A stretch of DNA of 64,000 bases from Opitutus sp. ER46. GTDB lineage: Bacteria; Verrucomicrobiota; Verrucomicrobiia; Opitutales; Opitutaceae. How positions within the stretch are numbered: the stretch's first letter is position 1; every line of letters begins with the position of its first letter. Shown in pieces: positions 6,286 through 41,715 of the stretch. The notes beneath the pieces were generated by a model, which saw only the letters and a list, made by a program, of their open reading frames with translations, was not told the DNA's origin and searched no databases. Made by a program: the position numbers and the translations under genes. Where the stretch lies: the NCBI RefSeq assembly GCF_003054705.1, contig NZ_QAYX01000025.1, forward strand, positions 496,001 to 560,000, read 5' to 3'.

Positions 6286-7704
6286 ATGAAATGGTCCTCC
6301 CGATTCCTCATCCCCGTGGCGTTGGCGCTGCTGCTTGCCGTCGCAGCGGGCGCGGCGGAGTACGCCGCGGGCACGACGGCGGAGCTGGCGGCGCTGCAGC
6401 GCCGGCTGGCGCCCGGCGACGTGGTCGTGCTCGCGAATGGCACCTGGCAGAACCAGGCGCTGGTGTTGCGCGGGCAGGGGACGGAGAAGGCCCCGATCAC
6501 GTTTCGGGCGGCGCGCCCGGGCGGCGTGGTGCTGACAGGTACTTCGACGCTGACGATCGACGGCCGCTGGCTGGTGGTGAGCGGGTTCTTCGTGCGCGGC
6601 GGGAGCGGCCCGGCGGCGGGCATCACGCTGCGCGGCGAGCACAACCGGCTCACGGAGACCGCGATGATCGGCGGCACGTACAAGCACTTCGTGCGGGTGT
6701 TCGGGGTGAGAAACCGGATCGATCACTGCCAGTTCGAGGGCAAGACGAGCGGCGAGCCGACGCTGCAGGTGGAGTCCGAGCCAACCGGGCCGAACGAGCA
6801 CCGGATTGACCACAATTACTTCGGTCCGCGGCCGCCGCTGGGGGCGAATGGCGGGGAGACGATCCGGGTCGGCTACAGCGGGCAGTCGATGAACGTGTCG
6901 CGAACGCTGGTGGAGGAGAACCTGTTCGAGGCGTGCGACGGCGAGATCGAGATCATCTCCAGCAAGTCGTGCGAGAATGTGTACCGGGCGAACACGTTTC
7001 GGCGCTGCGCCGGCATGCTGACGCTGCGGCATGGCAACCGCTGCGTGGTGGACGGCAATTTCTTCCTCGGCGAAGGCAAGAAGCACTCGGGCGGCGTGCG
7101 GATCATTGGCGAGGGGCACGTCGTCGTGAACAACTATGTCGAGGCGGTGGACCGCGGCGGGTTCTGGATCACCGCGGGCGTGCCGAATTCGCCGCTGAAC
7201 CGGTACTTCGTGGCGAAGGATTGCATCGTGGCGTTCAACACCGTGGTGGACAGCGCCGGGCCGTATCTCGACCTGGCGAACGGGCTCGGCGAAGGCGGGC
7301 GCACCCTCAAACCGGAGCGGATCACGGTGGCGAACAACCTCTTCGTGCTGGGACGCGGCGCGCAGCTCACGGTGGGGCAGGCGGGTGCGGATTGGCGCTG
7401 GGAGGGAAATCTGGTCGCGCCGGAGCGCGGGACGGAGCACATGGGGCCGGCGATTGCGGCGGGCGTGCGTGGCGTCGCTGACGCCGGCCTCGTGCGAGGG
7501 AGCGATGGGCTGTTGCGACTGCGGGCCGGCAGCGTCGCGATCGACGCGGCGGTCGGGGTGGCGGGGGCGGTGACGACGGATTTCGACGGTCAGTCCCGAG
7601 GGGAGAAGAAGGACGTCGGCGCTGACGAGTTCTCGAACGCGCCGGTCACGCAGCGGCCGCTGACGCGTGCGGACGTGGGGACGGCGTGGAAAGCCGAAGG
7701 CTGA
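6286..7704 (+). CDS. Polysaccharide lyase family 6 (alginate lyase/chondroitinase B-like)
   Basis: Secreted lyase of 472 residues with signal peptide (FLIPVALALLLAVAAGAAE) and a right-handed parallel beta-helix. The PL6 signature is clear: SKSCENVYRANTF supplies the catalytic Lys, and LTLRHGNRCVVDGNFF supplies the catalytic Arg, followed by GGVRIIGEGHVVVNNY. PL6 enzymes cleave alginate or dermatan sulfate by beta-elimination with Ca2+ as charge neutraliser. Length fits a single-domain PL6. ATG 6286 starts the signal peptide. The last codons (Lys-Ala-Glu-Gly) lie inside the left arm of the inverted repeat at 7697-7840, so the extreme C-terminus appears repeat-derived. Alginate is more likely than chondroitin in a bacterium of this kind, but the sequence cannot decide. 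Confidence 0.87.
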   Translation: MKWSSRFLIPVALALLLAVAAGAAEYAAGTTAELAALQRRLAPGDVVVLANGTWQNQALVLRGQGTEKAPITFRAARPGGVVLTGTSTLTIDGRWLVVSGFFVRGGSGPAAGITLRGEHNRLTETAMIGGTYKHFVRVFGVRNRIDHCQFEGKTSGEPTLQVESEPTGPNEHRIDHNYFGPRPPLGANGGETIRVGYSGQSMNVSRTLVEENLFEACDGEIEIISSKSCENVYRANTFRRCAGMLTLRHGNRCVVDGNFFLGEGKKHSGGVRIIGEGHVVVNNYVEAVDRGGFWITAGVPNSPLNRYFVAKDCIVAFNTVVDSAGPYLDLANGLGEGGRTLKPERITVANNLFVLGRGAQLTVGQAGADWRWEGNLVAPERGTEHMGPAIAAGVRGVADAGLVRGSDGLLRLRAGSVAIDAAVGVAGAVTTDFDGQSRGEKKDVGADEFSNAPVTQRPLTRADVGTAWKAEG

Positions 7705-7840
7705 AGGAACGAAGGCTGAATGCTGAACGCTGAAAACTGAACGGAGGCGGGTTCGTGCCTCTCGCGACACCGCCTACAGCCTAAAGCCTACCGCCTACAG
7801 CCTTCCGCCTTCAGCTTTCAGCCTTCGTTCCTTCAGCTTT
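7690..7840. repeat. Heptad repeat block 1 with perfect-like inverted arms
   Basis: The left half has GGCTGAA-type heptads and the right half GCCTACA / GCCTTCA-type heptads. The outer arms 7697-7720 and 7817-7840 are reverse complements over 24 bases with one mismatch. The block lies between two convergent genes and encodes the last residues of both. A bidirectional terminator or hairpin is possible. Confidence 0.8.
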
Positions 7841-8755
7841 TGCTTTCTTGCGGAGGCGGAGGGCGGTGGGGTTGCCCTTCTTGGCGGGGAGACGGACGGC
7901 GTGGCGGATCAGCCATTTGCGTTCGGCGGTGGCGCCTTCAATCCAGCGCTCACAGAGGGCGAACGCGACTTTCGGGTGATCCTTGAGGATGTCACCGAGG
8001 TGGTTGGCGACGCTGCGGCGGACGTAGAGGTCGGGATCGTCCTTGAGCGCCTCGAGGATGGGGAGCGTGGGCGTCGGATCCTTCACGAACGCGGTGAGCT
8101 GCTGACCCCACGGAAGACGCGGACGACTGCCTTCCGAGCACAGGCGGCGGACGTGCGCATCGGGGTCTTGGGTCCACGCGAGCAGTTGCTCGACCGTGCG
8201 TTCCGGCCAGCGGATCAGGAAGGGGCGGATGGCGAACTCGGCGGTGAAGCGGCGGGTGAGTTCGTAGAGCGCGTGCAGCGAAATCTCGAACGGGTCCTCG
8301 CCGTCGTTGTGGGCCGGATCTAGTCCGTATTCGGCGACAAAGCACGTATGTGGCGCGTAAAAGAAACCGCTGTGGCCCTCTTGCGTGACCTCGCTCAGCG
8401 GGGGCGTGAGGGAGCGGAGCAGGACGGCGACGGCGTCGCGGTAGCGCGGCGGCAGATGGCGGCGCAGCACGCGGGCGACGTGCGGACCGCGCTCCATGAT
8501 CGAGAGCGGCTCCAGGCCGGCGAGCGCATCGGCCTGGAAGGCGGGGCCGTCAAAGCCGGGGTAGGCAAGCGTCAGGTTGTGGGCGAGGCACTCGATGGCG
8601 GGTTCCGCCAGCATGGCCTTGAGCGAGACGCCCTTCTCCATGCCGCTGGTGAGCTTCGGCAGGCGGAGGAGCTTGGGGTCGACGGGCGCGGAGGACGCGC
8701 TGGCGCGGACGGTGGTAGCGGGGCGGGTGCGACGGGCGGGGCGGGCGGAAGGCAT
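7811..8755 (-). CDS. DNA alkylation repair-like HEAT-repeat protein
   Basis: Protein of 314 residues made of alpha-helical HEAT-like repeats, resembling the AlkD family of DNA glycosylases. The helix block TPTLPILEALKDDPDLYVRR followed by SVANHLGDILKDHPKVAF is characteristic of the family, and basic segments near the C-terminus (ERKWLIRHAVR) fit DNA binding. AlkD removes bulky or cationic alkylated bases, but whether this member is catalytic is not visible. The start at 8755 was chosen because codons further upstream fall in repeat block 2. The C-terminal tail KAKAEGTKAES is encoded by the right arm of the inverted repeat at 7817-7840. Convergent with the PL6 gene. Confidence 0.75.
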   Translation of the reverse strand: MPSARPARRTRPATTVRASASSAPVDPKLLRLPKLTSGMEKGVSLKAMLAEPAIECLAHNLTLAYPGFDGPAFQADALAGLEPLSIMERGPHVARVLRRHLPPRYRDAVAVLLRSLTPPLSEVTQEGHSGFFYAPHTCFVAEYGLDPAHNDGEDPFEISLHALYELTRRFTAEFAIRPFLIRWPERTVEQLLAWTQDPDAHVRRLCSEGSRPRLPWGQQLTAFVKDPTPTLPILEALKDDPDLYVRRSVANHLGDILKDHPKVAFALCERWIEGATAERKWLIRHAVRLPAKKGNPTALRLRKKAKAEGTKAES

Positions 8756-8759
8756 GGAA

Positions 8760-8955
8760 GGCGGAAAGCTGAAGGCCGAGGCTGAGAGATGCGTTGCAGG
8801 TTGGAAAGTCGCAGGTTGCAGGTCGGGGCGACGGAGAGTCGCGGGGCCGGGCTGGGACATCGTAGGCGCCGCTGCTTGGGCTTTTCCGCCTGCACCGTTC
8901 CAACCTGTGACGTGCCGCCTGGCAACGTTCCAAACCGCAGATTTTCCCTCCCGCG
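8760..8955. repeat. Heptad repeat block 2, inverted halves
   Basis: The left part (8789-8830) contains GTTGCAG/GTTGGAA heptads on the plus strand. The right part (about 8892-8950) contains the complementary CCAACCTG/AACGTTCC type. The two halves could pair imperfectly. It lies in the divergent gap between the HEAT-repeat gene and the first GH13 gene. Confidence 0.7.
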
Positions 8956-9026
8956 GGCTCGGGCATCACGATGCGGAGGGGACGAGGGCTGCAATTATAT
9001 CGATATGTCGTTCGGGAAGTTACGGG

Positions 9027-9064
9027 ATAATGTCCAGATACTCCGGAATAATGTCCAGATACTC
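9027..9064. repeat. Two 17-bp direct repeats, period 21
   Basis: ATAATGTCCAGATACTC occurs at 9027-9043 and again at 9048-9064. Short, closely spaced terminal repeats of about 20 bp are known at IS21-family ends. No transposase gene is present, so this could be a decayed end or an operator pair. Confidence 0.6.
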
Positions 9065-9358
9065 GCCGGATGGTCGGCATGCGGTGCGGCTACCCGCGCG
9101 TGCGCTTTTCGTGAGGCGGGATGGGAGCGTGGTTCGTACGCCTCCGGCGTCGACAACTTGGAGCCGGTGACCCTGCAACTCGCCTAGTCCTTCCGCGACG
9201 GTTCGGTGGCTTCGACGGCGGAGTCAGCCGCCGCCGGGGCTAAGATTTGTCCGGGCCATTTCGGATTGTTCTGGGTTTTTGGGGCGGCAGGCGGGGCGGA
9301 ACTCGTTAACCATTGGCGCATGAGTCGAGTTACCCCCTCCCCAAGTCTGGATCGCGCC

Positions 9359-12481: not shown

Positions 12482-14170
12482 TCAAGGCGCCCGCCAGCGC
12501 ACGACGTACAGCGTGAGCGGCGCGAGCTCCGCGAGCGGAGCGTACTGGGCGAATCCGCCCTGGGCGTTTGTTTGCACCGCGGCGACCGCTGCGCCCTGCA
12601 GCAGCTCCGTGGCGGTCCAGCCGACCTGGATACAAGAGACGACGGCGGACAACTGCGGGCCAGGCCGGGGGCGCGCCGTGAAGTTGGCGATGACGAGGAC
12701 GACCTCCGCCGGCGTTTGCCGGAGCGTGGCGTACACGGAACGATCGTTCCCAGTCACGGCGACCGGCTGGCCGTGGCGCAGCGCGGGCGAATTTGCGTTG
12801 AGCCGGACAAGTCGCCGGTAAAGCGCGAGCATCGAGTGCGGATCGGCCTCCTGGGTCGCCACGTTCTCGGTGGCGATGGCGGCCGTGAGCGGGTGCCACG
12901 GTGCGACCCCGGCGGGTGTGAAGCCCGCATGGGGCGACTCGGGCGTCCACGGCATCGGCGTGCGCAACTCCGGATCCGGCTTGGCGCCACGGAGCCCAAG
13001 TTCCTCGCCGTAATAGACGAAGGGCACGCCCGGAAGGGTGAACAGCACGGCGGTGGCGAGGCGGGTGCGGGCGAGGTCGCCGCCGAGTTGGGTAATCGCG
13101 CGCTCCTGGTCGTGGTTGGTGAGGATCGTGGCCCAGGGCGCGTCGTTGCCGTAGAGTTGGCCGAGCTGGGTGAGCGCCTGCTGCAGGATGCCGGGCGTTT
13201 CCAGCCGCACGGCCTGGATCGTGGCCTTGGCCAGGTCGAACTCGAAGGCGCTGTCGAGGGAACCACCGCGGAGGTTGCGGGTGACCTCGCGCATGTCCGC
13301 GGTGTTCTCGCCGATGACGAACGCGTCCGGTTTTACCTGGTGGCAGTAGGCGGTGAACTCACGCAGCCATTGCCGCGTCTCCTCGGTGTCCTGCAGGGCG
13401 TCGCCGGTCTCGCAAAAGTAGCGCACGGCGTCGAGCCGGAGGCCGTCTACGCCCACGTCCCGCAGCCAGAAGGCGGCGGCGCGCCGATGGTGGGCGGTGA
13501 CGGCGGGATGGCGGAAGTTCCAGTCGGGCATGTCTGGCGAAAAGACGGCGTAGTAGAAATCCCGGCCGGCCGGATACCACACCCACTGTCCCCAGGGGCC
13601 GGCGAGCTGCTCGGGCAGCGGCGCGAAGCGGAACAGCTCCCGTGCCTTCTGGCCGCCGGGGAGCGTGCCATCGGCCAGCGCGGCGACGAACCAGGGGTGG
13701 GCGGACGAACTGTGGTTGAGGACGAAGTCGATGATGACCCGGATGCCGCGGCGGTGGGCCTCGGCGACAAAGCGCTTCATGAGGGCGATGTCACCATATT
13801 GTGGATTCACGGCGAAGTAGTCGGTTACGTCGTAGCCGTGATAGCTGGGCGATGGGTGGATCGGCATGAGCCAGACGGCATTCACGCCCAGGGAGGTGCC
13901 GGCGGCGCCACGGCCGTCGTTGAGATGATCGAGGCGCTCGATCGCGCCCTGCAGATCCCCGATGCCGTCGCCGGCGAGCGGGCCCGTGCGGGCGTCGGCA
14001 AAGGAGCGGACGAAGATCTCGTAGAAGGTGGCCTCGCGCCACCAGCCGACCGGGGGATCATCCGGCGCCGGGGTTGCACTCAGGGAGGACAAACCGGAGA
14101 CCAGACCGGCTCCGGCGCAGGCGAGGAGGGCGCGGAACGAGGCGCGCCAAGGGGAACGCAGCGAACGCAT
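12482..14170 (-). CDS. Secreted GH13 alpha-glucosidase/amylase
   Basis: Second GH13 enzyme, 562 residues, with a signal peptide (FRALLACAGAGLVSGLSSLSA). The barrel starts with WWREATFYEIFVRSF. Conserved regions are GIRVIIDFVLNH, VDGLRLDAVR with nucleophile Asp247, AFVIGENT with acid/base Glu288, and ILTNHDQERA with Asp354. A C-terminal beta-sandwich of about 80 residues closes the protein. Region sequences resemble the oligo-1,6-glucosidase, trehalose synthase and alpha-amylase subfamilies. ATG 14170 was chosen over GTG 14200 because it starts the basic N-region of the signal peptide. Divergently transcribed from the large TonB receptor. Confidence 0.87.
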   Translation of the reverse strand: MRSLRSPWRASFRALLACAGAGLVSGLSSLSATPAPDDPPVGWWREATFYEIFVRSFADARTGPLAGDGIGDLQGAIERLDHLNDGRGAAGTSLGVNAVWLMPIHPSPSYHGYDVTDYFAVNPQYGDIALMKRFVAEAHRRGIRVIIDFVLNHSSSAHPWFVAALADGTLPGGQKARELFRFAPLPEQLAGPWGQWVWYPAGRDFYYAVFSPDMPDWNFRHPAVTAHHRRAAAFWLRDVGVDGLRLDAVRYFCETGDALQDTEETRQWLREFTAYCHQVKPDAFVIGENTADMREVTRNLRGGSLDSAFEFDLAKATIQAVRLETPGILQQALTQLGQLYGNDAPWATILTNHDQERAITQLGGDLARTRLATAVLFTLPGVPFVYYGEELGLRGAKPDPELRTPMPWTPESPHAGFTPAGVAPWHPLTAAIATENVATQEADPHSMLALYRRLVRLNANSPALRHGQPVAVTGNDRSVYATLRQTPAEVVLVIANFTARPRPGPQLSAVVSCIQVGWTATELLQGAAVAAVQTNAQGGFAQYAPLAELAPLTLYVVRWRAP

Positions 14171-14512
14171 ATCGGGAGGGGGAGTGGGGAGAGCGTGCAC
14201 GAGCGAGGACCCGGGTCAAAGGCCGGCAGGAAGACAAATCATAGGCAGGCTGGAATATTCTTGGGTGCCTGATGCGAGGCGACGGCGCGAAGGGGCGCGC
14301 CAGCCGGCTGGGCTGGGGCGGCATCCAAGATTTTTCCTACCCATCTCAGTTTTCTGTGCCGAAACCGCATGGCGGGGCGCGGGCCGTTGCCGCACGGTTT
14401 GATACTGCCGCGACCCCTGATGCGGCGGTTTTCCAACCAACCAACCAGCCAAGCGCCCGGCTACCCCCGGGCTGTCGTCAGTACCTCCGGAATGGAGAGA
14501 TTCGCACCCCCC
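14171..14512. promoter_or_regulatory. Divergent regulatory region of the maltodextrin locus
   Basis: A 342-base gap between a minus-strand GH13 gene and the plus-strand TonB receptor gene, which must hold promoters for both. Two hairpins precede the receptor: GCCGC/GCGGC at 14407-14426 followed by GGTTTT, and GCCCGG/CCGGGC at 14455-14472. The first looks like a weak attenuator. No clear promoter consensus is visible. Confidence 0.45.
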
Positions 14513-17308
14513 ATGCAAAACCGCACAAGCAAAGCAAACGTACGTCGGCGCCTTCTGCAGGGCGCCGCGCTGGCCATGCTGCTGACGCAGTCGGCCATTA
14601 CGGCCGCAGGGCAGACCGCCCCGGCCGCCACCCCCACAAACGATCCTGCGGCGCCGGCGAAGGAGGCCCCTGCCGCTGAACCCATTGTCAAACTTGACGA
14701 GTACCGCGTGACCGCGGGCTTCGCCAGCAGTCTCACGGTGGCGGCGACGGCCAAGGCCGAAGCGCCCACCATCACGGAAGTCGTCATCGCCGAGGATATC
14801 GGCAAGCTTCCCGACATCAGCATCGCGGATTCGCTGGCCCGGTTGCCCGGCTTGGCGACCCAGCGGCTCAATGGCCGCAGCGAAGTGATCAACATCCGCG
14901 GCCTGCCCGGTGATTTCAGCACGGCCCTGTTCAATGGCCGCGAGCAGGTCAGCAGCGGCAGCAATCGCTCGGTCGAGTTCGACCAGTACCCCGCGGAGTT
15001 GCTGAGCGGCGCCGTGGTGTACAAGACGGCCGATGCCTCGCTGATCGGCCAGGGCCTTTCCGGCACGGTCGACATGCGCACGGTGCGCCCGCTCTCGCAG
15101 GGCAAGCGCACCATCGCGTTCAACGCCCTGTACGAGCGCACGCAGTTCGAGCCGCTCGTCGCGGGCACGGAACGCGACGGCAAGCGCGCGTCGATCTCCT
15201 ACATCGACCAGTTCATGGACGGTAAGCTCGGCGTCGCCGTCGGGTTTGCCCACGCCGATGACCCGGGCCAGGGCAAGCAGTGGAATGCCTGGGGCTATCC
15301 CAACGTCGACGCGTCCGTCGCCACGGGTGCGCCTTACGTGCTGGGCGGCGCGAAGCCGTTCGTGCGTTCGAGCCAGATGAAGCGCAACGGCTTCATGGGC
15401 GTCGTGGAGTTCAAGCCCAACAGTTTCTTCCACACGACGTTCGATCTGTTCCGCTCGAAGTTTAAGGAGGACCAGTCGCTCAAGGGCATCGAGATCCCGC
15501 TGCAGTGGAGCTCCGCGACGCTGCAACCCGGCTTCACCGTTGACCGTGGCGTCATCACCAAGGCGACCTACGGCAATGTCTTCGGGGTGGCGCGCAACGA
15601 CGGCGTGTTCCGCAACAACGACATCTGGGCGCTTGGCTGGAACCTCAAGTTCGGCGACGGCACCGGCTGGACCACGGTCGCGGACCTGAGCTACTCCCGC
15701 ATCTATCGCAAGGACATCGTGCTCGAGACCTATTCGGGCTACGGCGCCAACCAGGCCGGCACGGCGGATCGCCTCACCTACCAGCTGCAAGGCAGCACCG
15801 GCGCGATCTTCACGCCGACGCTCGACTATACCAATGCCACGCTGATGAAGCTCTCGAGCCCGCAAGGCTGGGGTGGCGACGTGGTGTCCGGTGGCCAAGT
15901 CGGCTATCTGAAGTACATCCCGACGACCGACTCGCTCGCGGCCGCGAAGATCTCCACGAAGCACGATCTGAACTTCATCTTCAGCAGCTTTGAGGTCGGC
16001 GCGCACGTGAACCGCCGCACGAAGTCGGAGATCGAGGACGGCTACTATCTCGCGTTGCCGAATGGTGCGGCCACGGCTCCGTTGCCGACGCTGACCGGCA
16101 TCACCGACCTCAGCTTCATCGGCATCAAGGGCCTCGCTTCCTATGACCCGATCCAGGCCCTCAGCAGCGGCACGTACCGCGCGATCAAGAATCCGAATGC
16201 GGACGTGATTTCCGCGGCCTGGAACGTGAAAGAGGAAATCTCGCTGGCGTTCCTGCAGTTGAATATCAACCGGAAGCTCGGCTCGCTGCCGCTGACCGGC
16301 AACCTCGGCGGCCAAGTCGTCAACACCGACCAGAGCTCGACCGGCCTATCGGCGATTCCGATCAACGGCGCGACCCGTACGGTGCCGACCACGGGCGGCA
16401 AGAAGTACACCAACTTCCTCCCGAGCCTGAACCTGACGCTGAAGGTCACGCCGAAGACCCAGGTGCGCATGAGCCTCGCCCGGCAGCTCGCCCGCCAGCG
16501 CATGGCGGACATGGCGGCCGGCATGAACGTCGGTTACAACGCGGCCCTCGCGAACTCCACGGACCCGTACAACAGCGCGTTCAGCGCCTCGGGCGGCAAC
16601 CCCGAGCTGCGGCCCTGGGAGTCGAACTCCTTCGACCTCTCGCTCGAGCACTACTTCCACGACAACAAGGGCTACGTCGCGCTGGCCGGCTTCTACAAGG
16701 ACCTGCGCACGTACACCTACTCGCAGAAGACGATCGCCGACTTCTCCGGCTATCCGACGACCGGCGGCACGCCGGCGACCTTCCTTGGCGCGGTGAACCG
16801 TCCGGCGAACGGCCAGGGTGGCTCGATCAAAGGCCTCGAGACCTCGGTGCAGCTGCCGAGCGAACTGCTGCTGCCCGCGGTGCGCGGCTTCGGTGTCGTC
16901 CTTGGCGGCGCCTACACCGAGAGCGCGATCGCGCCCTATGGCCCGGGCTCGCAGAACACCCCGATCCCGGGCTTCTCCCGCAAGGTCGGCACCGCGACGC
17001 TCTACTATGAGCGCAACGGCTTCTCGGCCCGCGTGAGCACGCGGTATCGCTCCAAGTTCCGCGCCAACATCTACACGTTCGGCCCCCGCGGGGACAACTT
17101 CCAGACCGTCATGGCGCAGAAGTTGATCGACGCGCAGGTGAGCTACGCCTTCCAGAAGGGCTCGTTGAAGGGGCTCACGTTCGTCATCCAGGCCTACAAC
17201 CTGAACAACGAACCTGAGGTCACGTATCAGAACGAGGACTCGCGCCTGGTGACGAACTACCAGAAGTACGGCGCTTGGTACTCGGCCGGCGTCTCGTACA
17301 AGTTCTGA
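14513..17308 (+). CDS. TonB-dependent receptor (maltodextrin-type)
   Basis: Outer-membrane transporter of 931 residues. A signal peptide (LLQGAALAMLLTQSAITAAG) precedes an Ala/Pro-rich segment, then a plug with EVVIAEDIGKLPDISIADSL and LPGLATQRLNGRSE, typical of the Xanthomonas/Caulobacter TonB receptor type. The family includes maltodextrin receptors such as Caulobacter MalA. The barrel ends in VSYKF with the usual terminal Phe. It is followed by GH31, MalQ and a sugar MFS transporter in the same direction, which supports alpha-glucan uptake. ATG 14513 places the signal peptide at the N-terminus; ATG 14492 is an alternative. Confidence 0.88.
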   Translation: MQNRTSKANVRRRLLQGAALAMLLTQSAITAAGQTAPAATPTNDPAAPAKEAPAAEPIVKLDEYRVTAGFASSLTVAATAKAEAPTITEVVIAEDIGKLPDISIADSLARLPGLATQRLNGRSEVINIRGLPGDFSTALFNGREQVSSGSNRSVEFDQYPAELLSGAVVYKTADASLIGQGLSGTVDMRTVRPLSQGKRTIAFNALYERTQFEPLVAGTERDGKRASISYIDQFMDGKLGVAVGFAHADDPGQGKQWNAWGYPNVDASVATGAPYVLGGAKPFVRSSQMKRNGFMGVVEFKPNSFFHTTFDLFRSKFKEDQSLKGIEIPLQWSSATLQPGFTVDRGVITKATYGNVFGVARNDGVFRNNDIWALGWNLKFGDGTGWTTVADLSYSRIYRKDIVLETYSGYGANQAGTADRLTYQLQGSTGAIFTPTLDYTNATLMKLSSPQGWGGDVVSGGQVGYLKYIPTTDSLAAAKISTKHDLNFIFSSFEVGAHVNRRTKSEIEDGYYLALPNGAATAPLPTLTGITDLSFIGIKGLASYDPIQALSSGTYRAIKNPNADVISAAWNVKEEISLAFLQLNINRKLGSLPLTGNLGGQVVNTDQSSTGLSAIPINGATRTVPTTGGKKYTNFLPSLNLTLKVTPKTQVRMSLARQLARQRMADMAAGMNVGYNAALANSTDPYNSAFSASGGNPELRPWESNSFDLSLEHYFHDNKGYVALAGFYKDLRTYTYSQKTIADFSGYPTTGGTPATFLGAVNRPANGQGGSIKGLETSVQLPSELLLPAVRGFGVVLGGAYTESAIAPYGPGSQNTPIPGFSRKVGTATLYYERNGFSARVSTRYRSKFRANIYTFGPRGDNFQTVMAQKLIDAQVSYAFQKGSLKGLTFVIQAYNLNNEPEVTYQNEDSRLVTNYQKYGAWYSAGVSYKF

Positions 17309-21466: not shown

Positions 21467-21768
21467 AATAGAGAATGCAGAATGGCTCAAGCGGAGCGCT
21501 GAAGGCAGGCGACGGTGAATGCAGGAGGCTGAAAATGATGGGTAACCACGAATGGACACGAAGGTACACGAATGGGATGACTCTCCCCGAGTTGGCTCGG
21601 CGTGGGATGCTGGTTTTCGCTGTCTTCCTTCGCTGCGACCCCTGACTTCCGACATGCGACATCTGACCTCCGGCTTCCGTCCTCCGGCTTTTGGCCTCTG
21701 ACCTCTGACATCTGACCTCTGGTTTCTGGCCTCCGGCCTCTGGCTTCCGGCTTCTGAAACAATACCCC
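21455..21768. repeat. Repeat block 3 (heptads plus decamers)
   Basis: The 314-base gap between malQ and the MFS gene is almost all repeat. It has GCTGAA-type units at about 21490-21535 and a decamer array (CACGAATGGA units at 21547, 21557 and 21567). A long heptad array of TCTGACC / TCTGGCC / TCCGGCT units runs from about 21640 to 21758, directly before the MFS start. Confidence 0.8.
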
Positions 21769-23139
21769 ATGCGCAAGCTCTCGTTACCAGCTATCTGGAA
21801 CATGAATTTCGGCTTTCTGGGCATCCAGTTCGGCTGGGGGCTGCAGATGGCCAACATGAGTCCGATCTACAAGTACCTCGGCGCGGCCGATGAGCAGATC
21901 GCGAAGCTCTGGCTGGCGGCGCCGCTGACGGGGTTGCTGGTGCAGCCGATCGTCGGGGCGATGAGCGATCGCACCTGGGGATGGCTGGGGCGGCGGCGGC
22001 CGTATTTCCTGATTGGCGCGATATTGAGCACGATCGCGCTGCTCCTGATGCCCAACGCCGGGTCGCTGGCGGAGTGGCTGATCCCGCACCTGCCGAAGTT
22101 CTACATGGCGGCGGGGCTGCTCTGGGTGCTCGACGCGAGCATTAACATCTCGATGGAGCCGTTCCGCGCGTTTGTGGCAGACAAGCTGCCCGAGGAGCAG
22201 CGGGGCACCGGCTTCGCGATGCAGAGCTTCTTCATTGGGGTCGGCGCGGTGGTGGCGGGATTGCTGCCGTGGATGCTGCGCAACTGGTTCGGCGTGAGCC
22301 CGGCGGCCGACGGCGCGAACGCACTCCCGTTGAACGTGAAAATCTCGTTCTACGTGGGCGCGGCGGCGTTCCTGACGGCGGTGCTCTGGACGGTGATTTC
22401 AACGAAAGAGGAGCCGCCGGCGGACATGGAGGCGTTCCGGCGGAAGAAGTCGGAGACGAAGGGAATCGGACCGCTGGTGCGGGAGATCGGCAGCGCGCTG
22501 GCGGAGATGCCGACGACGATGCGGCGCCTCGCGGTGGTGCAGTTCTTCACCTGGATGGGGCTGTTCTGCATGTGGCTGCATTTTTCGAACGCGGTGCCGG
22601 TGATCTTTGGCAGCGGCGATCCGAGCTCGGATCTGTTCAAGCGCGGCGCGGAGTGGGCGGGGGTGTGTTATGCGACAAAGGACGCCGTGACTTTCCTGGC
22701 GGCGTTCGTGCTGATGGCGGCGGCGCGGAAGCTGGATCGGCGATGGCTGCATGCCGTGTGCCTCGTGCTCGGCGCGGTTGGACTGCTGGCGGTGGGCTTC
22801 ATCCACGGCGAGGAGCAACGCTTCCTGCTGCTGGGCGCGCTGGCGCTGGGCGGCATTGCGTGGGCGTCGATTCTGTCGATGCCGTATGCGATCCTGTCGG
22901 GTGCGCTGCCGCCGGAGCGGATGGGCGTGTACATGGGCATCTTCAATTTCTTCATCGTGCTGCCCGAGATCCTGGCGGCGTTGTTCTTCGGCGGGATCGT
23001 GAAGCACGTCCTCCATGGGAACCTCGTTTGGGCCGTGATGGCCGGCGGCGGCTTCATGCTCCTGGCCGCGGCGGCGCTGGCCTTTGTGCCGGCCGAGCCG
23101 CGCGCGGAGCCCGCGCAAGGCGCAGGCGTTGCTGGTTGA
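21769..23139 (+). CDS. MFS sugar transporter (SLC45/GPH-like)
   Basis: Integral inner-membrane protein of 456 residues with about 12 helices, resembling the SLC45/GPH group of cation-coupled sugar transporters. The MFS loop signature is SDRTWGWLGRRRPY after helix 2; the N-terminus has the NMNFGFLGIQFGWGLQMAN motif seen in bacterial maltose or sucrose permeases. Placed after malQ, it most likely carries maltose or maltodextrin into the cytoplasm. The ATG follows repeat block 3 directly, so the promoter and leader are unclear. Confidence 0.88.
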   Translation: MRKLSLPAIWNMNFGFLGIQFGWGLQMANMSPIYKYLGAADEQIAKLWLAAPLTGLLVQPIVGAMSDRTWGWLGRRRPYFLIGAILSTIALLLMPNAGSLAEWLIPHLPKFYMAAGLLWVLDASINISMEPFRAFVADKLPEEQRGTGFAMQSFFIGVGAVVAGLLPWMLRNWFGVSPAADGANALPLNVKISFYVGAAAFLTAVLWTVISTKEEPPADMEAFRRKKSETKGIGPLVREIGSALAEMPTTMRRLAVVQFFTWMGLFCMWLHFSNAVPVIFGSGDPSSDLFKRGAEWAGVCYATKDAVTFLAAFVLMAAARKLDRRWLHAVCLVLGAVGLLAVGFIHGEEQRFLLLGALALGGIAWASILSMPYAILSGALPPERMGVYMGIFNFFIVLPEILAALFFGGIVKHVLHGNLVWAVMAGGGFMLLAAAALAFVPAEPRAEPAQGAGVAG

Positions 23140-23330
23140 AGGTGCGAAGGTTGCAGGTTGGTCCGATCGACGGTGGAGCGGATCGATCGGACGGATCTGA
23201 CAGATCAGACGGATCAGTCTGATCACGTGGATCGGCCGGCGGGAGCCGGCCGAGAACGAGAAGGGCCGTGGACCTGCAACCTGCCAACTCTCCAACCTGC
23301 AACCTTCCGACTTTCCAACCTGCGACCGGG
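23128..23330. repeat. Repeat block 4 (heptads around a GATC nonamer array)
   Basis: Between the convergent MFS and ispH genes. GGTTGCA heptads at about 23139-23160 are on the plus strand. A nine-base array has GATC at 23185, 23194, 23203, 23212, 23221 and 23230. A 29-base GC-rich phrase (23234-23262) recurs at 26643-26671. Complementary CCAACCTGCAACC-type heptads follow at about 23271-23326. Confidence 0.82.
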
Positions 23331-25422: not shown

Positions 25423-25858
25423 GATGGCCGGAATTGTTGGCGGTCGGAGGGGTTTTGCAACCGCGGCAGCGGATTCCGAAGGTGGGGTGGCGACGGGAGA
25501 ACGGGACGGATTGGGGTGGGTAACTACGAATGCACACGAATGAACACGAATGGGATGGAAGGACGGAGAATCGCGAGAGGGGGCGGAGCTACAGGTGAGG
25601 GAGTTGCAGGTGGCAGGTTTCGAAGCCACGGGGGAACGGGAACCACTGACGGGGGAGAACCGCGAACGGCGCGGAAGAGCGCGAAAACTTGGGGTGGGCG
25701 GCAGGCGAAGGCGGTGGAAGGTGGCAAAGTTACAGGTTCCAGGTGCGCACGTTGCGGGTTTGAACCTCGGACGGACGACCACAATGGGCGGGCCAGGGCC
25801 GCACGGACGTTGGTTTTGCGGGCGCAAAAAACAACGTTTGGGCGTAGGTTCCCGGGCC
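25423..25858. repeat. Repeat block 5 in a 436-base divergent gap
   Basis: Between the small acidic gene and pcm. A decamer array has ACGAA at 25526, 25536 and 25546, matching the array at 21547-21575. Heptad units of the GTTGCAG/GTGGCAG type lie at about 25596-25625 and 25718-25762, all on the plus strand. I see no gene in the gap. Confidence 0.75.
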
Positions 25859-26446
25859 ATGTTTGGCTGGATGCCCAGAGATGTCGTGGCCCGGGCGGCG
25901 CGCGCGGTGCGGCGCGAGGAGTTCCTGCCGGAAGCGCAGCGGGGGCATGCGCGGGAGGACCGGCCGCTGCCGATCGGACACGCGCAGACGGCGTCGCAGC
26001 CGACGCTGGTGGCGGAGATGACGCGTGAGCTCGAGCTGCGGCGGGAGAGTCGGGTGCTGGAGGTGGGGACGGGGTCGGGTTACCAGACGGCGATCCTGGC
26101 GGAGCTGGCGGCGGAGGTGTTCACGATCGAGCGAATCCCGGAGCTGGCGCTCGCGGCGCGCGTGCGGCTGCGCCGGCTGGGGTATGGAAATATCCACTAC
26201 CGCGTGGGCGATGGCGCGGCGGGCTGGCCGGAGGCGGCGCCCTTCGAGGCGATCATCGTGACGGCGGCGCCGACGACGATCCCGCCGGCGCTTGTGACAC
26301 AGCTGGCAGCGGGCGGCAGGATGGTGATTCCGGTGGGCGTGAATCCCGACGATCAGACGCTGGTGAAAGTGACGAAGGACTGCGACGGGCGGGTGACGGA
26401 GCGACCGCTGTTCGGCGTGCGGTTTGTGCCACTCGTGACGAAGTGA
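25859..26446 (+). CDS. pcm: Protein-L-isoaspartate O-methyltransferase
   Basis: SAM-dependent enzyme of 195 residues that methylates L-isoaspartyl residues in damaged proteins for repair. It has the family opening IGHAQTASQPTLVAEMT, SAM motif I VLEVGTGSGYQTAIL, and later motifs FEAIIVTAAPTTIPPALVTQL and GRMVIPVG. Length is close to E. coli Pcm (208). ATG 25859 was chosen, since codons before it lie in repeats. Convergent with alaS. Confidence 0.9.
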   Translation: MFGWMPRDVVARAARAVRREEFLPEAQRGHAREDRPLPIGHAQTASQPTLVAEMTRELELRRESRVLEVGTGSGYQTAILAELAAEVFTIERIPELALAARVRLRRLGYGNIHYRVGDGAAGWPEAAPFEAIIVTAAPTTIPPALVTQLAAGGRMVIPVGVNPDDQTLVKVTKDCDGRVTERPLFGVRFVPLVTK

Positions 26447-26695
26447 AAGTGAAAGTGAGAGTGAAAGTGGGGGCGGAGGGGGACGCGGTGTGGGGGGCGG
26501 TCTTACTCTTACTCTTTCTCTCGAAAGGGCGCGATCGGCGGAACTCGCGGGCCTCGTGCGGTGAGACGACGCGCCTGCGGCCGACGTGAGCGAACGAGGA
26601 ACTCGTGCTGCTGCGCGGTAGGTGCGCGCAGCAGAAGACGGAGGCCGGCGACAGCCGGCCGAGAACGAGAACGAGAACGAGAACGAGAACCAGCG
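26440..26695. repeat. Repeat block 6 (hexads, inverted halves)
   Basis: Between convergent pcm and alaS. AGTGAA hexads at about 26442-26470 face CTTACTCTT-type complementary hexads at about 26503-26523. A second part repeats the 29-base phrase of block 4 (26643-26671) and continues as GAGAAC hexads to about 26691, next to the alaS stop. Confidence 0.78.
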
Positions 26696-31466: not shown

Positions 31467-31469
31467 GGA

Positions 31470-36849: not shown

Positions 36850-36852
36850 CAA

Positions 36853-37165
36853 GCGGGGCGGGGTGGTTACAAAATTGTATGGACGGCGAGGGCGGCCGAC
36901 CGAGCGGGGCGGAGAGGAAGTCCGGGAAGTGGCCCGGGAACGGGGAGCGGCAAGCGTGCCAACGGCGAGAGGGCGGGCGGCGAGACCGAGGTGGGGAGGG
37001 CGGTGGGGGGCGGCGGCGGAACGAGAACGAGAACGATGGGAGGGCGGCTGCGATATCCGGGGACGGCCCTCAATCCCTCAATCCCTCAATCCCTCAATCC
37101 CTCAATCCCTCAATCCCTCAATCCCTTGCGAGTAAGAGAAAGAGGAAGAGCAAGAGAAAGACCGG
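36853..37165. repeat. Repeat block 7 with a seven-copy octamer array
   Basis: A 313-base gap. GAGAAC/GAACGA hexads lie at about 37018-37036. CCCTCAAT is repeated seven times without error at 37067-37122. AGAAAG-type hexads follow at about 37135-37160, up to the cyclophilin stop. The rest (36853-37017) must hold the transporter promoter, but I see no consensus. Confidence 0.85.
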
Positions 37166-37780: not shown

Positions 37781-37782
37781 GG

Positions 37783-37900
37783 GGAAAGGGCTAAAGGGCG
37801 AAAAGGCTTAAGGGCTGAAAGGGAAGATGCTGAAGGTCTGAAATCCCTCAATCCCGCTCTGAGGAGAAAGAGAAAGAGGATGAGTAAGAGAAAGAGAGGT
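37783..37900. repeat. Repeat block 8
   Basis: Purine-rich short units (AAAGGGC, GGGCTGAAAGG, AGAAAGAGG) fill most of the divergent gap between the cyclophilin and the membrane protein. One and a half CCCTCAAT octamers lie at about 37846-37857, linking this block to block 7. Confidence 0.65.
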
Positions 37901-37962
37901 GGAAACCGTTGAAATTGCCTTGAGTGGGGGAGGGGCGAACGGAGAGCTTGGGGGGCTTGAGT

Positions 37963-39516
37963 ATGTTCTCTCGCCGGATGGTTTTGCGCGGGGCGGGTGT
38001 GGCGCTCGCCGTGCTGTTTCTCGGCATGGTGAGCCGCTTCTGGCACCCGTATTATGGATTCACGCGGTTCATTCAGATGGATGAAAGCGATGAGCGCGTC
38101 GCGGTGTCGGCGGTGAAATCGGGGGCCGTTTTCGTCTATGCGGGAAGCAATGGCTACGATGGAGCGACATACGCGCAGATCGCGGTTGATCCTTCGCTGC
38201 GCGATCGGGAATTGCCCCAGGCGATCCAGAATCTGCCGTATCGAGCGCGGCGGATTCTCACGAGTTTTGTGGCGTGGACCGTGGCGGGAGGACGTCCGGC
38301 GGCGATCGCGCCCACCTATGCCGCGCTGAACATCGCGGTGTGGCTGGCGCTCGCGCTGGTGGGCTGGCGGCTGTTGCGCGTGGACGATGCGCGCAGCTTC
38401 GCGGTATGGGCGGGTTTTCTTTGCTCGGCGGGAGTGTTGCACTCGGTGCGACTGGCGCTGACGGATGCGTTTGCGACCCTGCTCTTCGCCTGGGCTTTGA
38501 CGGCGGCGGAGCGCGGACGTTGGCGCTGGGGCGCGGCGGTGCTCGGCGTGGCGGGGCTGGCGCGGGAGAGCATTCTCGCGACCGCGCTCGCGTTTGTGCC
38601 GCCCGCGGCGGTGCGGGCGCGACGGTGGCGCGAGTTGCTGTTCGCCGGGGTGGTCGTTTGCGCGCCGCTCTCCGTGTGGCTCGTGTACGTGACCCTCACG
38701 GTGGGCAATGCCGGCGAAGGCTGGGGCAACTTTTCGGCGCCGCTGGTCGGCCTGTTTGGGAAACTCAAAGAGGTGGTGACCGGGCTCGATCCGCGGGAGC
38801 CCTGGTGGCTGCTGCGGTTCGGCACCGCGATCTCGTTCGTCGCGCTCCTGAGCCAGGCGGCGTATGTCTTGCGGCATCGCGATCTGGAGGATCGCTGGTG
38901 GCGAAGCGCGTTGGGCGGCCTGGCGATGATGGCGTGCTTTGGCACCGCGGTGTGGGAGGGAAATCCGGGCGCGGCGACGCGCGTGTTGCTGCCGCTGTCG
39001 CTGGCGGTGGCGGTCCTGATCGTACGGCGGCGCAGCGGCTGGCATTGGGTGGTGCTCACAAACCTCACGGTGCTGAGCGGCGTGCTGGCATTCGTCCATG
39101 TCCCTCGGCACGCGAACGAATTTACGGCGGGCCGCGCGGGCGGCCTCGGCTACGTGGCGGAGCTGCGCTCCGGCTGGTACGGCCGCGAGGAGGCGGGGCG
39201 GCATTTCTGGACGTGGACCGCGGGCGGCGGGGAGATCGCGATGCGGACGACGGCGGGCGCGCCGACGGCGGCGACGCTGACGCTGCGACTGCGCGCGTTG
39301 AGTCCGCGGCGGGTTACGCTGCGGGTGAACGGCCTGGAACGCTGGGCCGGGGAGGTGGGAACCGAGGCGATCCCGGTGACGGTGCCGGTGCAGGCGACAC
39401 GCACGCTGCGGTTGGAGCTGGCGTCGGAGGCCGCGCCTGTGACGGAAGGGGCGCGAGCCGATGCGCGCCTGCTCGGGTTTGCGGTGTACGATCTCGGCCT
39501 CGCGGCGGCGCGGTAA
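37963..39516 (+). CDS. Multi-pass membrane protein, possible GT-C glycosyltransferase
   Basis: Integral membrane protein of 517 residues with about ten helices (VLRGAGVALAVLFLGMVS, APTYAALNIAVWLALALVGW, LLFAGVVVCAPLSVWLVYV and others). The first periplasmic loop (IQMDESDERVAV, GSNGYDGATYAQIAVDP) has an acidic Asp/Glu motif of the kind used by GT-C glycosyltransferases for a lipid-phosphate sugar donor. The last about 130 residues are soluble and beta-rich (RVTLRVNGLERWAGEVG). Exact activity is not readable. ATG 37963 was chosen; GTG 37924 is possible. Confidence 0.7.
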   Translation: MFSRRMVLRGAGVALAVLFLGMVSRFWHPYYGFTRFIQMDESDERVAVSAVKSGAVFVYAGSNGYDGATYAQIAVDPSLRDRELPQAIQNLPYRARRILTSFVAWTVAGGRPAAIAPTYAALNIAVWLALALVGWRLLRVDDARSFAVWAGFLCSAGVLHSVRLALTDAFATLLFAWALTAAERGRWRWGAAVLGVAGLARESILATALAFVPPAAVRARRWRELLFAGVVVCAPLSVWLVYVTLTVGNAGEGWGNFSAPLVGLFGKLKEVVTGLDPREPWWLLRFGTAISFVALLSQAAYVLRHRDLEDRWWRSALGGLAMMACFGTAVWEGNPGAATRVLLPLSLAVAVLIVRRRSGWHWVVLTNLTVLSGVLAFVHVPRHANEFTAGRAGGLGYVAELRSGWYGREEAGRHFWTWTAGGGEIAMRTTAGAPTAATLTLRLRALSPRRVTLRVNGLERWAGEVGTEAIPVTVPVQATRTLRLELASEAAPVTEGARADARLLGFAVYDLGLAAAR

Positions 39517-39591
39517 ATTTCCGGCGCGGACGTGGCGCTGTCCGGGACGGTTTTCGTCGGGGATTCGGCACGCGCTTTCGACCCAAAGAAA

Positions 39592-39620
39592 ACGGCCGCC
39601 GGAGAGCATCCGGCGGCCGT
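39592..39620 (-). terminator. Strong intrinsic terminator of thrS
   Basis: A perfect 11-bp stem (ACGGCCGCCGG / CCGGCGGCCGT) with a 7-base loop, followed on the minus strand by TTTTCTTTG. It lies 27 bases after the thrS stop and also faces the convergent membrane-protein gene. Confidence 0.88.
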
Positions 39621-39646
39621 GAGAGGTGGTAGCTGCGGACCGGTCT

Positions 39647-41560
39647 TTATGCCTTTTTCTTTTCGGGCAGGGAACGGGATTGGGCCTCGGCCTTGACCTT
39701 GGCCACGTAGGCGTCGGCGGTCATCACACCCTCGTCGCCGCGGGCGCGGGAGCGGACGGACACGCTGTTGGCCTCGGCCTCCTTCTGGCCGATGACGATC
39801 GTGTACGGGACCTTGTCGATCTCGGCGCGACGGATCTTGGCGCCCAGCTTGTCGCTGTGCTCGTCGAGCGTGGCGCGGAGCCCTTCGGCGCGGAGCCGGT
39901 TGAGGAGGCCGCGGGCGTAGTCCATCGTCTTGTCGCTGATCGGCACCAGGCGAATCTGCTCGGGGGCGAGCCAGACCGGGAAGTCGCCGGCGAAGTGCTC
40001 GATGAGCACGCCGCAGAAGCGCTCCATGGAGCCGAACGGCGCGCGGTGGATCATGACCGGGCGGTGCGGCTGGTTGTCGGCGCCGATGTAGGACAGGTCG
40101 AACCGGATGGGCAGGTTGTAGTCGACCTGCACGGTGCCGAGCTGCCATTCGCGGCCGATGACGTCCTTGACCACGAAGTCGATCTTCGGGCCGTAGAACG
40201 CGGCCTCGCCGGGCTCCTCAGTGAAGGGCACGCCGAGAGTCTTCGCCGCCTCGCGGCAGGCGTTTTCGGCTTTGTCCCAGTTCTCCTTGTTGCCGGTGTA
40301 CTTCGTGGAATCCGGATCCCGCAGGCCGACGCGCACGCGGTAGTCCTGCATGCCGAGCGTGCTGAGCACGATCTTCACGAGGGAAAGGCAGCCGAGGACC
40401 TCCTGGGCGACCTGTTCCTCGGTGCAGAACAGATGGGCGTCGTCCTGGGTGAAGCCGCGGACGCGCGTCATGCCGTTGAGCTCGCCGCTCTGCTCCCACC
40501 GGTAGACGGTGCCGAATTCCGCGAGGCGGACCGGCAGGTCGCGGTACGAGTGCGGCTGCGAGGCGAAGATCTTGATGTGGTGCGGGCAGTTCATCGGCTT
40601 CAGGAGGAAGCCGTTGAGGAGTTGCTCGTCGGGCCGCACGCGATCGGGGGTGATCACCTCGCGGCCGGTGCGGTTGTTGACCTGTTCGCGGAGATTGTTC
40701 GAGACCGCGTCGAGCCGGGCGAACGCCTCGGCGCAGGAGCAGTTTTCACCCAGCGCCTTGGCCAGGGAGTCGTTCTCGAAGATCGGGGAGAACTGAGAGT
40801 CCTTGTAGTACGGGAAGTGGCCGGAGGTCTTGTAGAGCTCGAGCTTGCCGATGTGCGGCGTGAACACCTGCGAGTAGCCCTGCTTGCGCAGTTCCTCGCT
40901 GATGAACGTCTGCAGCTCCTGGCGGATGATGGCCCCGTTGGGCGTCCAGAGGATCAAGCCCTGGCCAACGTCCTCATCGATGTGGAAGAGCTTCAGCTCG
41001 CGGCCGAGTTTGCGGTGGTCGCGGAGCTTGGCCTGTTCCTGCTGGGTGAGGTAGTTGGCGAGTTCGTCCTTGGAGGCGAAGGCGGTGCCGTAGATGCGCT
41101 GGAGCTGCTTGTTCTTCTCGTCGCCGCGATGGTACGCGCCGGCAATGGAGAGCAGCTTGAAGGCCTTGATCTGCTTCGTGTACCGGACGTGCGTGCCGGC
41201 GCAGAGGTCGATGAAGTCGCCGTTCTGGTAGAACGAGATCTTCTCGCCCTCCGGAATGTCGGACAGGCGGCCCAGCTTGTAGCGCTCCTGGCCGATGCGC
41301 TTGATGATCTCCGTTGCTTCCTCGCGCGAAACCTCGGTCCGGCGGAACGGCTGGTTCTCATCGATCACCTTCTTCATCTCCGCCTCGAGCTTCGTGAGGT
41401 CCTCGGCGGTGAGTTTGTGATCGAGATCGATATCGTAATAGAACCCGGTGTCCGTCGGGGGGCCGATATCGAGCTTGGCATCGGGGAAGATGCGCAGAAT
41501 CGCGGTCGCCAGCACGTGGGAGCACGAGTGGCGAATTTCTTCAAGCGGAGTCATAGCCAT
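39647..41560 (-). CDS. thrS: Threonyl-tRNA synthetase, TGS domain absent
   Basis: Class II synthetase of 637 residues that charges tRNA-Thr and removes Ser. The usual N-terminal TGS domain (about 60 residues) is missing; the protein begins with the editing domain (HSCSHVLATAI, IDLCAGTHVRYT). The catalytic core has FLLKPMNCPHHIKIF, motif 2 YRWEQSGELNGMTRVRGFTQ, and AAFYGPKIDFVVKD, and the anticodon domain starts VWLAPEQIRLVPIS. Between HFPYYKDSQF and FLLKPMNCPHH there is an extra segment of about 45 residues (about 257-315) absent from E. coli ThrS. ATG 41560 lies at the natural N-terminus. Confidence 0.93.
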   Translation of the reverse strand: MAMTPLEEIRHSCSHVLATAILRIFPDAKLDIGPPTDTGFYYDIDLDHKLTAEDLTKLEAEMKKVIDENQPFRRTEVSREEATEIIKRIGQERYKLGRLSDIPEGEKISFYQNGDFIDLCAGTHVRYTKQIKAFKLLSIAGAYHRGDEKNKQLQRIYGTAFASKDELANYLTQQEQAKLRDHRKLGRELKLFHIDEDVGQGLILWTPNGAIIRQELQTFISEELRKQGYSQVFTPHIGKLELYKTSGHFPYYKDSQFSPIFENDSLAKALGENCSCAEAFARLDAVSNNLREQVNNRTGREVITPDRVRPDEQLLNGFLLKPMNCPHHIKIFASQPHSYRDLPVRLAEFGTVYRWEQSGELNGMTRVRGFTQDDAHLFCTEEQVAQEVLGCLSLVKIVLSTLGMQDYRVRVGLRDPDSTKYTGNKENWDKAENACREAAKTLGVPFTEEPGEAAFYGPKIDFVVKDVIGREWQLGTVQVDYNLPIRFDLSYIGADNQPHRPVMIHRAPFGSMERFCGVLIEHFAGDFPVWLAPEQIRLVPISDKTMDYARGLLNRLRAEGLRATLDEHSDKLGAKIRRAEIDKVPYTIVIGQKEAEANSVSVRSRARGDEGVMTADAYVAKVKAEAQSRSLPEKKKA

Positions 41561-41669
41561 GATGTGTAGTGATTGTGGCCTGCCTACGATTGCAGGGCCG
41601 GAACCGTGTAGAGCGCCGGGAAAACGCGTGGGTGTCAACCCGGCGGCGCGCCGCGGCGCCGGCGCGCTG

Positions 41670-41715
41670 CGGTTCCAGGTTCAAGGTTGGAAGGTTACAG
41701 GTTCGGAAACCGCCG
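41670..41715 (+). repeat. Heptad repeat block 9
   Basis: Units GGTTCCA, GGTTCAA, GGTTGGA, GGTTACA and GGTTCGG follow at 7-8 base spacing. It lies in the 256-base divergent gap between thrS and the arginase-like gene. The rest of that gap shows no gene. Confidence 0.75.

Follow-up and report, generated by a model that had tools for sequence, protein, structure and literature searches.

Degenerate tandem arrays between genes of Opitutus sp. ER46 as probable arms of short intergenic units carrying PF05635 or PF13366 genes

The intervening sequences (IVSs) of 23S rRNA are, in the accessible part of the report on the Coxiella element, excised by RNase III, and the Coxiella IVS contains an S23 gene, stem-forming inverted ends and tandem heptamers 5' of the gene, whose number varies among strains (PMC4990558). 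The present work deals with degenerate tandem arrays of short words between the genes of Opitutus sp. ER46, in a stretch of 64,000 nucleotides with a GC content of 0.67 (C25:496001-560000 of the 5.7-Mb genome), hereafter called the window. These arrays are quite probably the arms, often standing alone, of short intergenic insertion units that carry a PF05635 or a PF13366 gene. The gene-bearing unit is a single short gene flanked by inverted, degenerate tandem arms. Its gene belongs either to the four-helix-bundle "23S rRNA intervening-sequence protein" family (23S_rRNA_IVP/S23, PF05635) or to the unrelated GxxExxY family, which has a PD-(D/E)XK nuclease fold (PF13366).

The 23S rRNA IVS is the nearest known kind of element. 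The likeness in carrying a PF05635 gene holds for the four-helix units only, and not for the GxxExxY units, while inverted ends able to form a stem are found in the units here as well. In contrast, the IVS lies in an rRNA helix, whereas the units examined together with their neighbours lie between protein genes, and they are present in multiple copies per genome, use many words and include a second, unrelated gene family on the same plan. This second family is the strangest part and was found in none of the open-access reports searched, as far as their accessible text goes. In those papers (most subscription papers being outside the search), no link of GxxExxY genes to repeats was found, and for PF05635 and repeats, only the heptamers of the Coxiella IVS paper came up.

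The short tandemly repeated repetitive (STRR) sequences of cyanobacteria are intergenic tandem heptamers, and heptamers likewise make up the arms around PF05635 genes on plasmids of Nostoc and Calothrix. An excess of heptamers in bacteria has been remarked on without detailed study in the available text of one report (PMC4692102), and TAACTGA repeats are described in that of another for Beggiatoaceae, cyanobacteria and Bacteroidetes, with no evident mechanism (PMC4679880). Like the arrays studied here, TAACTGA in Beggiatoaceae and GGGAATC in Xanthomonas and Nostoc are intergenic tandem heptamers with a patchy distribution across phyla; the available text of the two reports names neither a linked gene nor an inverted partner (PMC4679880, PMC4692102). 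On the protein side, Avd of diversity-generating retroelements, a reverse-transcriptase partner, is given in the accessible text as a homologue of PF05635, the four-helix protein of the units (PMC10053308). Finally, the hairpin-forming doublets of repetitive extragenic palindromic sequences (REPINs) and the REP-associated tyrosine transposases (RAYTs), as far as the source text describes them, share with the units the presence of small intergenic palindromes, some next to their own gene and others geneless, but the units contain a PF05635 or PF13366 gene and not a Y1 (HUH) transposase.

Genomes of at least nine phyla, judged by record title, contain an exact 29-mer of the step-10 word CACGAATGG: it occurs in 38 stretches, which belong to 31 genomes as counted by accession prefix, mostly metagenome bins, for which misbinning is possible. 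The first match directly follows AAC in 26 of the 38 stretches, and 21 have an inverted end within 400 nt; in viral contigs, no stretch with this 29-mer was found. Since, by reading, part of a GxxExxY gene accompanies the arms in several stretches, either enclosed by them or next to them, the arms were then tested by gene family. Separately, three stretches of the Clostridiales metagenome-assembled genome (MAG) Nc350_bin216 (L069, L079 and L086) hold near-identical geneless CACGAATGG palindromes; the likeness extends beyond the palindromes over a longer sequence, suggesting that they spread recently.

For the arm test, the 260 nt on the 5' side of the gene domain were compared with the 260 nt on its 3' side in reverse complement, far flanks serving as controls. 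Pooled over the sets other than the named plasmids, arms scored above the controls at 79 of 96 PF05635 loci and 48 of 58 PF13366 loci. The first PF13366 set, in which all 33 loci were counted including 2 that fail the motif rule elsewhere, showed a median score of 44, with 29 loci above the far-flank maximum (30 controls, median 19.5). For the first PF05635 set, the median was 40.5 and 26 of 30 loci exceeded the maximum (25 controls, median 19). Another 40 PF05635 loci, hand-picked from the match list, gave 35 above the limit of 28, or 29 of 34 without the six loci known beforehand to have nearby arrays. Within 18 of the 31 genomes that hold the 29-mer, arms were above the control at 19 of 25 PF13366 and 18 of 26 PF05635 loci, a frequency that is not unbiased because the genomes were chosen for holding the word. 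Both of these sets comprised 30 loci initially: on the PF05635 side, L213 and L227 were omitted (below cut-off) and L205 and L219 were lost (short flanks), and on the PF13366 side, L242, L243, L254, L255 and L256 were omitted as fragments or weak. In named plasmids, all 16 PF05635 genes sampled had arms above the control, with step 7 in 13 and step 8 in 3 (16 of 28 matching records, several of them related, and 15 of the 16 cyanobacterial). Housekeeping loci, i.e., peptidyl-prolyl isomerase and pcm orthologues, exceeded 30 at 1 of 31; the removal of short flanks left 31 of 36 housekeeping loci and 27 of 30 loci of Y1 transposases as controls.

The step of the arrays goes with the gene family. 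Of 111 PF05635 flanks, 69 had step 7 as the best and 7 had step 8, compared with 3 of 102 far flanks for step 7; steps of 6, 8 or 9 occur at further PF05635 loci (the flank of L218 includes a masked run of N, which the step score took as matches). For PF13366, step 9 or 10 was best in 34 of 116 flanks against 4 of 106 far flanks. Pooled lag counts for GxxExxY gave no clear peak, in our opinion because the spacing switches back and forth between 9 and 10. When 98 PF05635 domains, 75 of them with a called step, were placed on a tree, the step changed 10 times compared with a mean of 17.3 after shuffling, and none of 500 shuffles was as low. Both arms of one locus bear the same word. When opposite arms of different loci were compared, taking a score of at least 30 as a common word, the word was common in 93% of 15 pairs of four-helix proteins that are at least 80% identical and in 3 of 3 such GxxExxY pairs, and in at most 3% of pairs below 45% identity. 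Word similarity tracks protein identity in both families (0 of 300 permutations). The step is a family trait and the word a lineage trait, and since the word is lost at lower protein identity while the step persists, the step outlasts the word.

Orientation was assessed from the codon usage of the neighbours, which was possible for 23 of 33 PF13366 and 66 of 70 PF05635 loci of relatives. In co-directional gaps, the unit gene runs in the direction of both neighbours in 21 of 22 cases for PF13366 and 60 of 63 for PF05635. Plasmid copies lie between cas6 and cas4, between cas10 and cmr3, and between fabD and fabG. Because most units lie in co-directional gaps and their gene runs along with the neighbours, they are probably passenger cistrons served by the transcript of the host operon. 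The sense bias would follow from selection, whether for expression or against antisense insertion, and equally from insertion via RNA.

Orthologous junctions were compared in 24 congeneric genomes for gatA|gatB and in 21 for rmlB|rmlA. The gatA|gatB junction contains a full GxxExxY unit in G000, G003, G008, G017, G018 and G021, a four-helix unit with AGTAGCG arms in G002, and geneless palindromes with differing words in G001, G013, G014, G016 and G023. In G019, both arms and both gene ends are kept while the middle of the gene is gone. The inverted arms of these 13 junctions are beyond base shuffles (0/15 or 0/60) and those of the other 11 are not; some of the latter have, by reading, an apparent single worn arm, and G004 and G011 are bare. 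At rmlB|rmlA, the four-helix gene is present in G000, G012, G014, G018, G021 and G026 and internally deleted in G002, GxxExxY-type geneless palindromes are read in G008 and G019, and the others are short or bare. At rmlD|rmlB, G000 has a full GxxExxY unit, G011 a deleted copy, and G002 the GGTTGCA word as a geneless palindrome. At fixed sites, units have thus been gained or lost, and some have lost their interior while retaining the arms. Copies that are geneless or internally deleted and retain their inverted ends (G019 gatA|gatB, G011 rmlD|rmlB, G002 rmlB|rmlA) recall miniature inverted-repeat transposable elements (MITEs); the parent unit, however, is without a DDE or other known transposase, and no target duplication was seen at these borders, which are too diverged to be fixed. 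The architecture, the link to two families, the joint inheritance of word and protein, and the presence, absence or internal deletion at orthologous junctions are all observed directly. Both kinds of unit occur together in one rml operon at C19:88.4k-90.4k, the GxxExxY unit separating an rmlD-like gene from rmlB and the four-helix unit separating rmlB from rmlA.

Arrays with a Tandem Repeats Finder (TRF) score of at least 36 were located in 855 kb of the same genome, 15% of it intergenic. The first-pass annotation of the window had placed its arrays outside protein domains, and this was borne out in the main: all 43 arrays of step 6, 32 of 33 of step 7 and 17 of 21 of step 8 are intergenic, against 11 of 23 for step 9, 12 of 16 for step 10 and 21 of 80 for step 12. 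Its description of a fixed step with a drifting word also holds, and the literature search likewise turned up no standard name for such a mixed set. Gaps, words and array pairs were surveyed in 1.65 Mb, 29% of the genome. An array is present in 124 of 788 gaps of at least 60 nt, and 60 array pairs are mutually inverted within 1.6 kb. AGAGNA in three copies was found at 42 intergenic and no coding loci (reversed control, 4 intergenic), and GAGAAC and CCCTCAAT at 13 intergenic and no coding loci each (reversed controls, none intergenic). AGTGNA gave 31 intergenic and no coding loci, with an uninformative reversed control of 26 since the word is nearly identical read backwards, and GGTTNNA was the weakest, with 16 intergenic and 6 coding loci against 5 and 3 reversed. 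In the whole genome, CCCTCAATCCCTCAAT has 158 matches and its reversed pattern none.

Several words of the window have a gene-bearing partner elsewhere in the genome. For four-helix units, these are C25:191.5k (TCTGACC/GCCAGAA, step 7), C18:331.8k (AGAGTA, step 6), C23:470.4k (AGTGAA, step 6) and C18:353.0k (AAAGGGCT, step 8), and GATCNGAC has a step-9 partner at C18:305.3k, whose protein is of the four-helix-suffix kind with a topoisomerase-type zinc ribbon. The cousins GAGGGACT/GAGGGAGT of the word CCCTCAAT are arms of four-helix genes in G003, G012 and G023, the proteins of which cluster with that of the AGTGAA unit on the tree. When 1222 genes of the genome were ranked by inverted-arm score, genes of the two families and of the four-helix-suffix kind ranked 2, 4, 6, 11, 15, 18, 26 and 44.

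Several observations weigh against reading the arrays as arms of such units. Genes of other families reach equally high positions in this ranking, perhaps because geneless arrays occupy both adjoining gaps, and the ranking misses three known PF05635 genes that were not called by the gene finder. Compared with mismatched-locus pairs, only 21 of 33 PF13366 and 7 of 30 PF05635 loci exceed the 99th percentile, a harder control because some words are common to several loci. In named plasmids, clear arms were found at just 3 of 8 GxxExxY genes (all 8 matching records used). Unit-by-unit mirroring of the two arms was not supported, with 4 of 46 four-helix loci at p < 0.05 (Fisher p = 0.26) and one GxxExxY locus meeting the entry rule. 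For GAGAAC and GGTTGCA, no gene-bearing partner turned up in the sampled 29% of the genome, and the window itself has just two clear inverted pairs, most of its arrays being single arms or composites. As for the junctions, their states alone do not show transposition, those of gatA|gatB could also arise by loss and replacement, and no insertion with target duplication was seen among junctions too diverged for their borders to be fixed.

In a complete unit, the small gene is enclosed by an inverted pair of degenerate tandem arms of about 30-40 nt; each unit has a word of its own, the same in both arms, and a step that goes with the protein, namely 9-10 for GxxExxY and mostly 7 for four-helix, where 6, 8 and 9 are less frequent. 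According to the proposed mechanism, the units would be mobile and copied into junctions between genes. The protein would recognise its own arms, keeping them alike and letting geneless copies spread in trans, and slippage would alter the copy number. For the movement of GxxExxY units, nuclease cleavage followed by copying during repair is judged the likeliest route. Cutting by GxxExxY proteins is plausible, since each of the PD-(D/E)XK residues is retained by 55-58 of the 58 sequences (E in 57, D in 57, E in 55 and K in 58). Handling of nucleic acid by the four-helix protein is plausible because the S23/IVP family is reported to be homologous to Avd.

A wider proposal is put forward tentatively, with the odds somewhat against it. 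The units may form a class of mobile elements present in nine or more phyla. Its two unrelated small proteins, a four-helix bundle and a PD-(D/E)XK nuclease, would each recognise the inverted ends of their own unit by a private tandem word, with the step acting as a family code. The units would be copied sense-wise into co-transcribed junctions, possibly via RNA, and their geneless remains would be a main source of unexplained 6-10-base intergenic repeats in many bacteria. If the arrays are indeed arms of such units, they would explain the long-noticed surplus of short repeats between bacterial genes, and the units would provide a role for GxxExxY and four-helix-bundle genes and account for their wedging into operons (gat, rml, cas, fab). 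Scattered, unexplained heptamer reports would come together in a single, testable class of element for which two proteins are candidates, and the origin of the 6-10-base intergenic repeats would be directly testable.

The alternative that survives best, although we consider it rather unlikely, is that the units are intergenic cousins of the 23S rRNA IVS, that is, parasites acting at the level of RNA. Their arms would pair in the host mRNA and be excised by RNase III, which would make insertion tolerable, and the tandem step would only yield a stem that survives slippage. Stems of 30-40 nt are of the length that RNase III cuts, and the median arm length is 30-40 nt for steps 6, 7 and 8 of PF05635 and steps 9 and 10 of PF13366. 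The sense orientation of the units between co-directional genes also agrees with this explanation, as do the protein family, the inverted ends and the heptamers of the Coxiella IVS in the accessible part of its report (PMC4990558). Nevertheless, it gives no role to the GxxExxY nuclease, and arm mismatches in relatives lean towards wobble types of the antisense strand (216 vs. 151, p = 0.0008; 66 loci vs. 33), a lean not present in plasmid loci (18 vs. 17). Given the antisense lean in relatives and none in plasmids, strand-specific wobble was dropped as a clue to the mechanism.

That the arrays are host regulatory hairpins (terminators, mRNA stabilisers or attenuators) accumulating by chance near small genes is improbable. 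The arrays do form palindromes, and they are commonest in convergent gaps (32 of 125, compared with 26 of 179 divergent and 66 of 484 co-directional gaps). They are not kept at orthologous gaps, however, and the words differ between species at the same junction. Of the 24 congeneric orthologues of peptidyl-prolyl isomerase, two have an adjacent array that scores at least 12, one of these being a GC-rich run; synteny is not kept there, and therefore no strict empty-site test is available. The pcm|alaS gap of the window (259 nt) contains three arrays, whereas that of G017, the sole one of 12 other pcm loci read as syntenic, has none. The suggestion that the arrays are transcription ends fails as a general account because they also occur in divergent and co-directional gaps, and gene-bearing units are mostly between co-directional genes. 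The other suggestion, DNA structure elements, fits the palindromes and gives no origin for them.

Pure replication slippage of chance seeds, which had also been put forward, is very improbable as a full account of the arrays. Free variation in copy number is in its favour, e.g., from 2 to 9 for GAGGGATT, and slippage is a likely contributor. As a sole cause it is contradicted, since one word stands inverted on both sides of a small gene, the step is bound to the protein family and the word follows protein kinship; the arrays differ from simple slippage repeats by this link to a gene family and an inverted partner. Two further observations argue against it: 31 genomes hold one word as an exact 29-mer, in 38 stretches altogether, and the order of words recurs, with a CTCTTT array before 11 of 12 GAGGGATT arrays in the 1.65 Mb.

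The least credible explanation is that of REP/REPIN-like palindromes moved by RAYT (Y1) transposases, which was set aside as the mover of stepped arms because tandem steps occur in just 2 of 54 RAYT flanks and stepped arms flank PF05635 and PF13366 genes instead, despite 13 PF01797 matches in the genome, inverted flanks above 30 at 16 of 27 RAYT loci, and a RAYT gene of this genome at C25:1664-2641 with a heptamer-like, AAGGTAA-like inverted flank.

In the window, tandem steps were tested in 38 gaps against 500 dinucleotide shuffles per gap. The first-pass annotation had named ten gaps with arrays, of which seven exceed the shuffles (p ≤ 0.006): 7690-7840 (step 7), 21470-21765 (step 7), 23128-23330 (best step 9), 26440-26695 (step 6), 37018-37160 (best step 8) and 37783-37900 (best step 6), all at p = 0.002, and 25515-25765 (step 10) at p = 0.006. 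The gaps holding 21-56 (p = 0.357), 8760-8955 (p = 0.507) and 41670-41715 (p = 0.096) showed no excess over these shuffles. Steps and words from TRF agree with those given for the window before. Two inverted pairs that had been overlooked, 7697-7748/7786-7840 and 23128-23161/23292-23326, were each significant at p = 0.010. The array contributes the stop codon to gene calls ending at 7704, 23139 and 26446. Comparison of the window with 156 PF05635/PF13366 domain queries gave nothing convincing, the best match having E = 0.002 at 21% identity, and an Rfam scan at gathering scores gave a single match, 6S RNA at 59951-60129, with no rRNA.

The first pair is a geneless palindrome of a degenerate GGCTGAA word of step 7 (score 57), with the left arm at 7697-7748 (+) and the right arm (GCCTACA/TTCAGCC) at 7786-7840 (-), the step-7 array spanning 7769-7825. 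A weak pair of GGTTGCA type, step 7, lies at 8797-8815 (+) and 8889-8907 (-), with p = 0.050 for the pair, in a gap where the tandem test is not significant. Two single arms follow: CACGAATGGA with step 10 at 21547-21575 (+), a word found around GxxExxY pieces of other genomes, and a long TCTGACC arm with step 7 at 21644-21754 (-), whose partner word is that of the four-helix unit at C25:191.5k. The second clear pair (score 38) has a GGTTGCA/GGTTGAA left arm, step 7, at 23128-23161 (+) and the inverted GGTTGCA word at 23292-23326 (-), and between these arms a GATCNGACN array of step 9 at 23176-23225 (+) has its partner word in the four-helix-suffix unit at C18:305.3k. Further on, TRF gives a single ACGAATGAAC arm of step 10 at 25526-25552 (+), in the gap with p = 0.006.

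Three step-6 arrays are found next: AGTGAA at 26441-26469 (+), partnered by the four-helix unit at C23:470.4k; TCTTAC at 26501-26521 (-), whose partner word AGAGTA is that of the four-helix unit at C18:331.8k; and CGAGAA (GAGAAC) at 26660-26690 (+), with no gene-bearing partner in the sampled part of the genome. AAAGGGCT with step 8 at 37785-37823 (+) has its partner word in the four-helix unit at C18:353.0k, and a GAGAAA array of step 6 at 37864-37897 (+) was given by TRF (gap test, p = 0.002). A possible worn GGTTNNA arm of step 7 at 41671-41704 (+) is within the shuffle range (p = 0.096).

A four-word composite lies at 37019-37161, where TRF gives a GAACGA array of step 6 at one end (37019-37036, +) and a GAGAAA array of step 6 at the other (37130-37161, +), with 7.5 copies of CCCTCAAT at step 8 in between (37067-37126, +), cousin words of which surround the four-helix genes of G003, G012 and G023. 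The same word order recurs at 11 other places in the 1.65 Mb, namely, a CTCTTT array, a GAGGGATT array, a short spacer and then CACTTT and/or CGTTCTC arrays, and these composites look like copies of one composite ancestor. In addition, the divergent gap 14093-14575, which had not been named before, contains a CCAA array of step 4 at 14433-14452 (p = 0.002 against shuffles). Outside the families described, the 21-base direct repeat CGGAATAATGTCCAGATACTC is present at 9023-9064, with a related intergenic array of step about 21 at C25:270121-270152.

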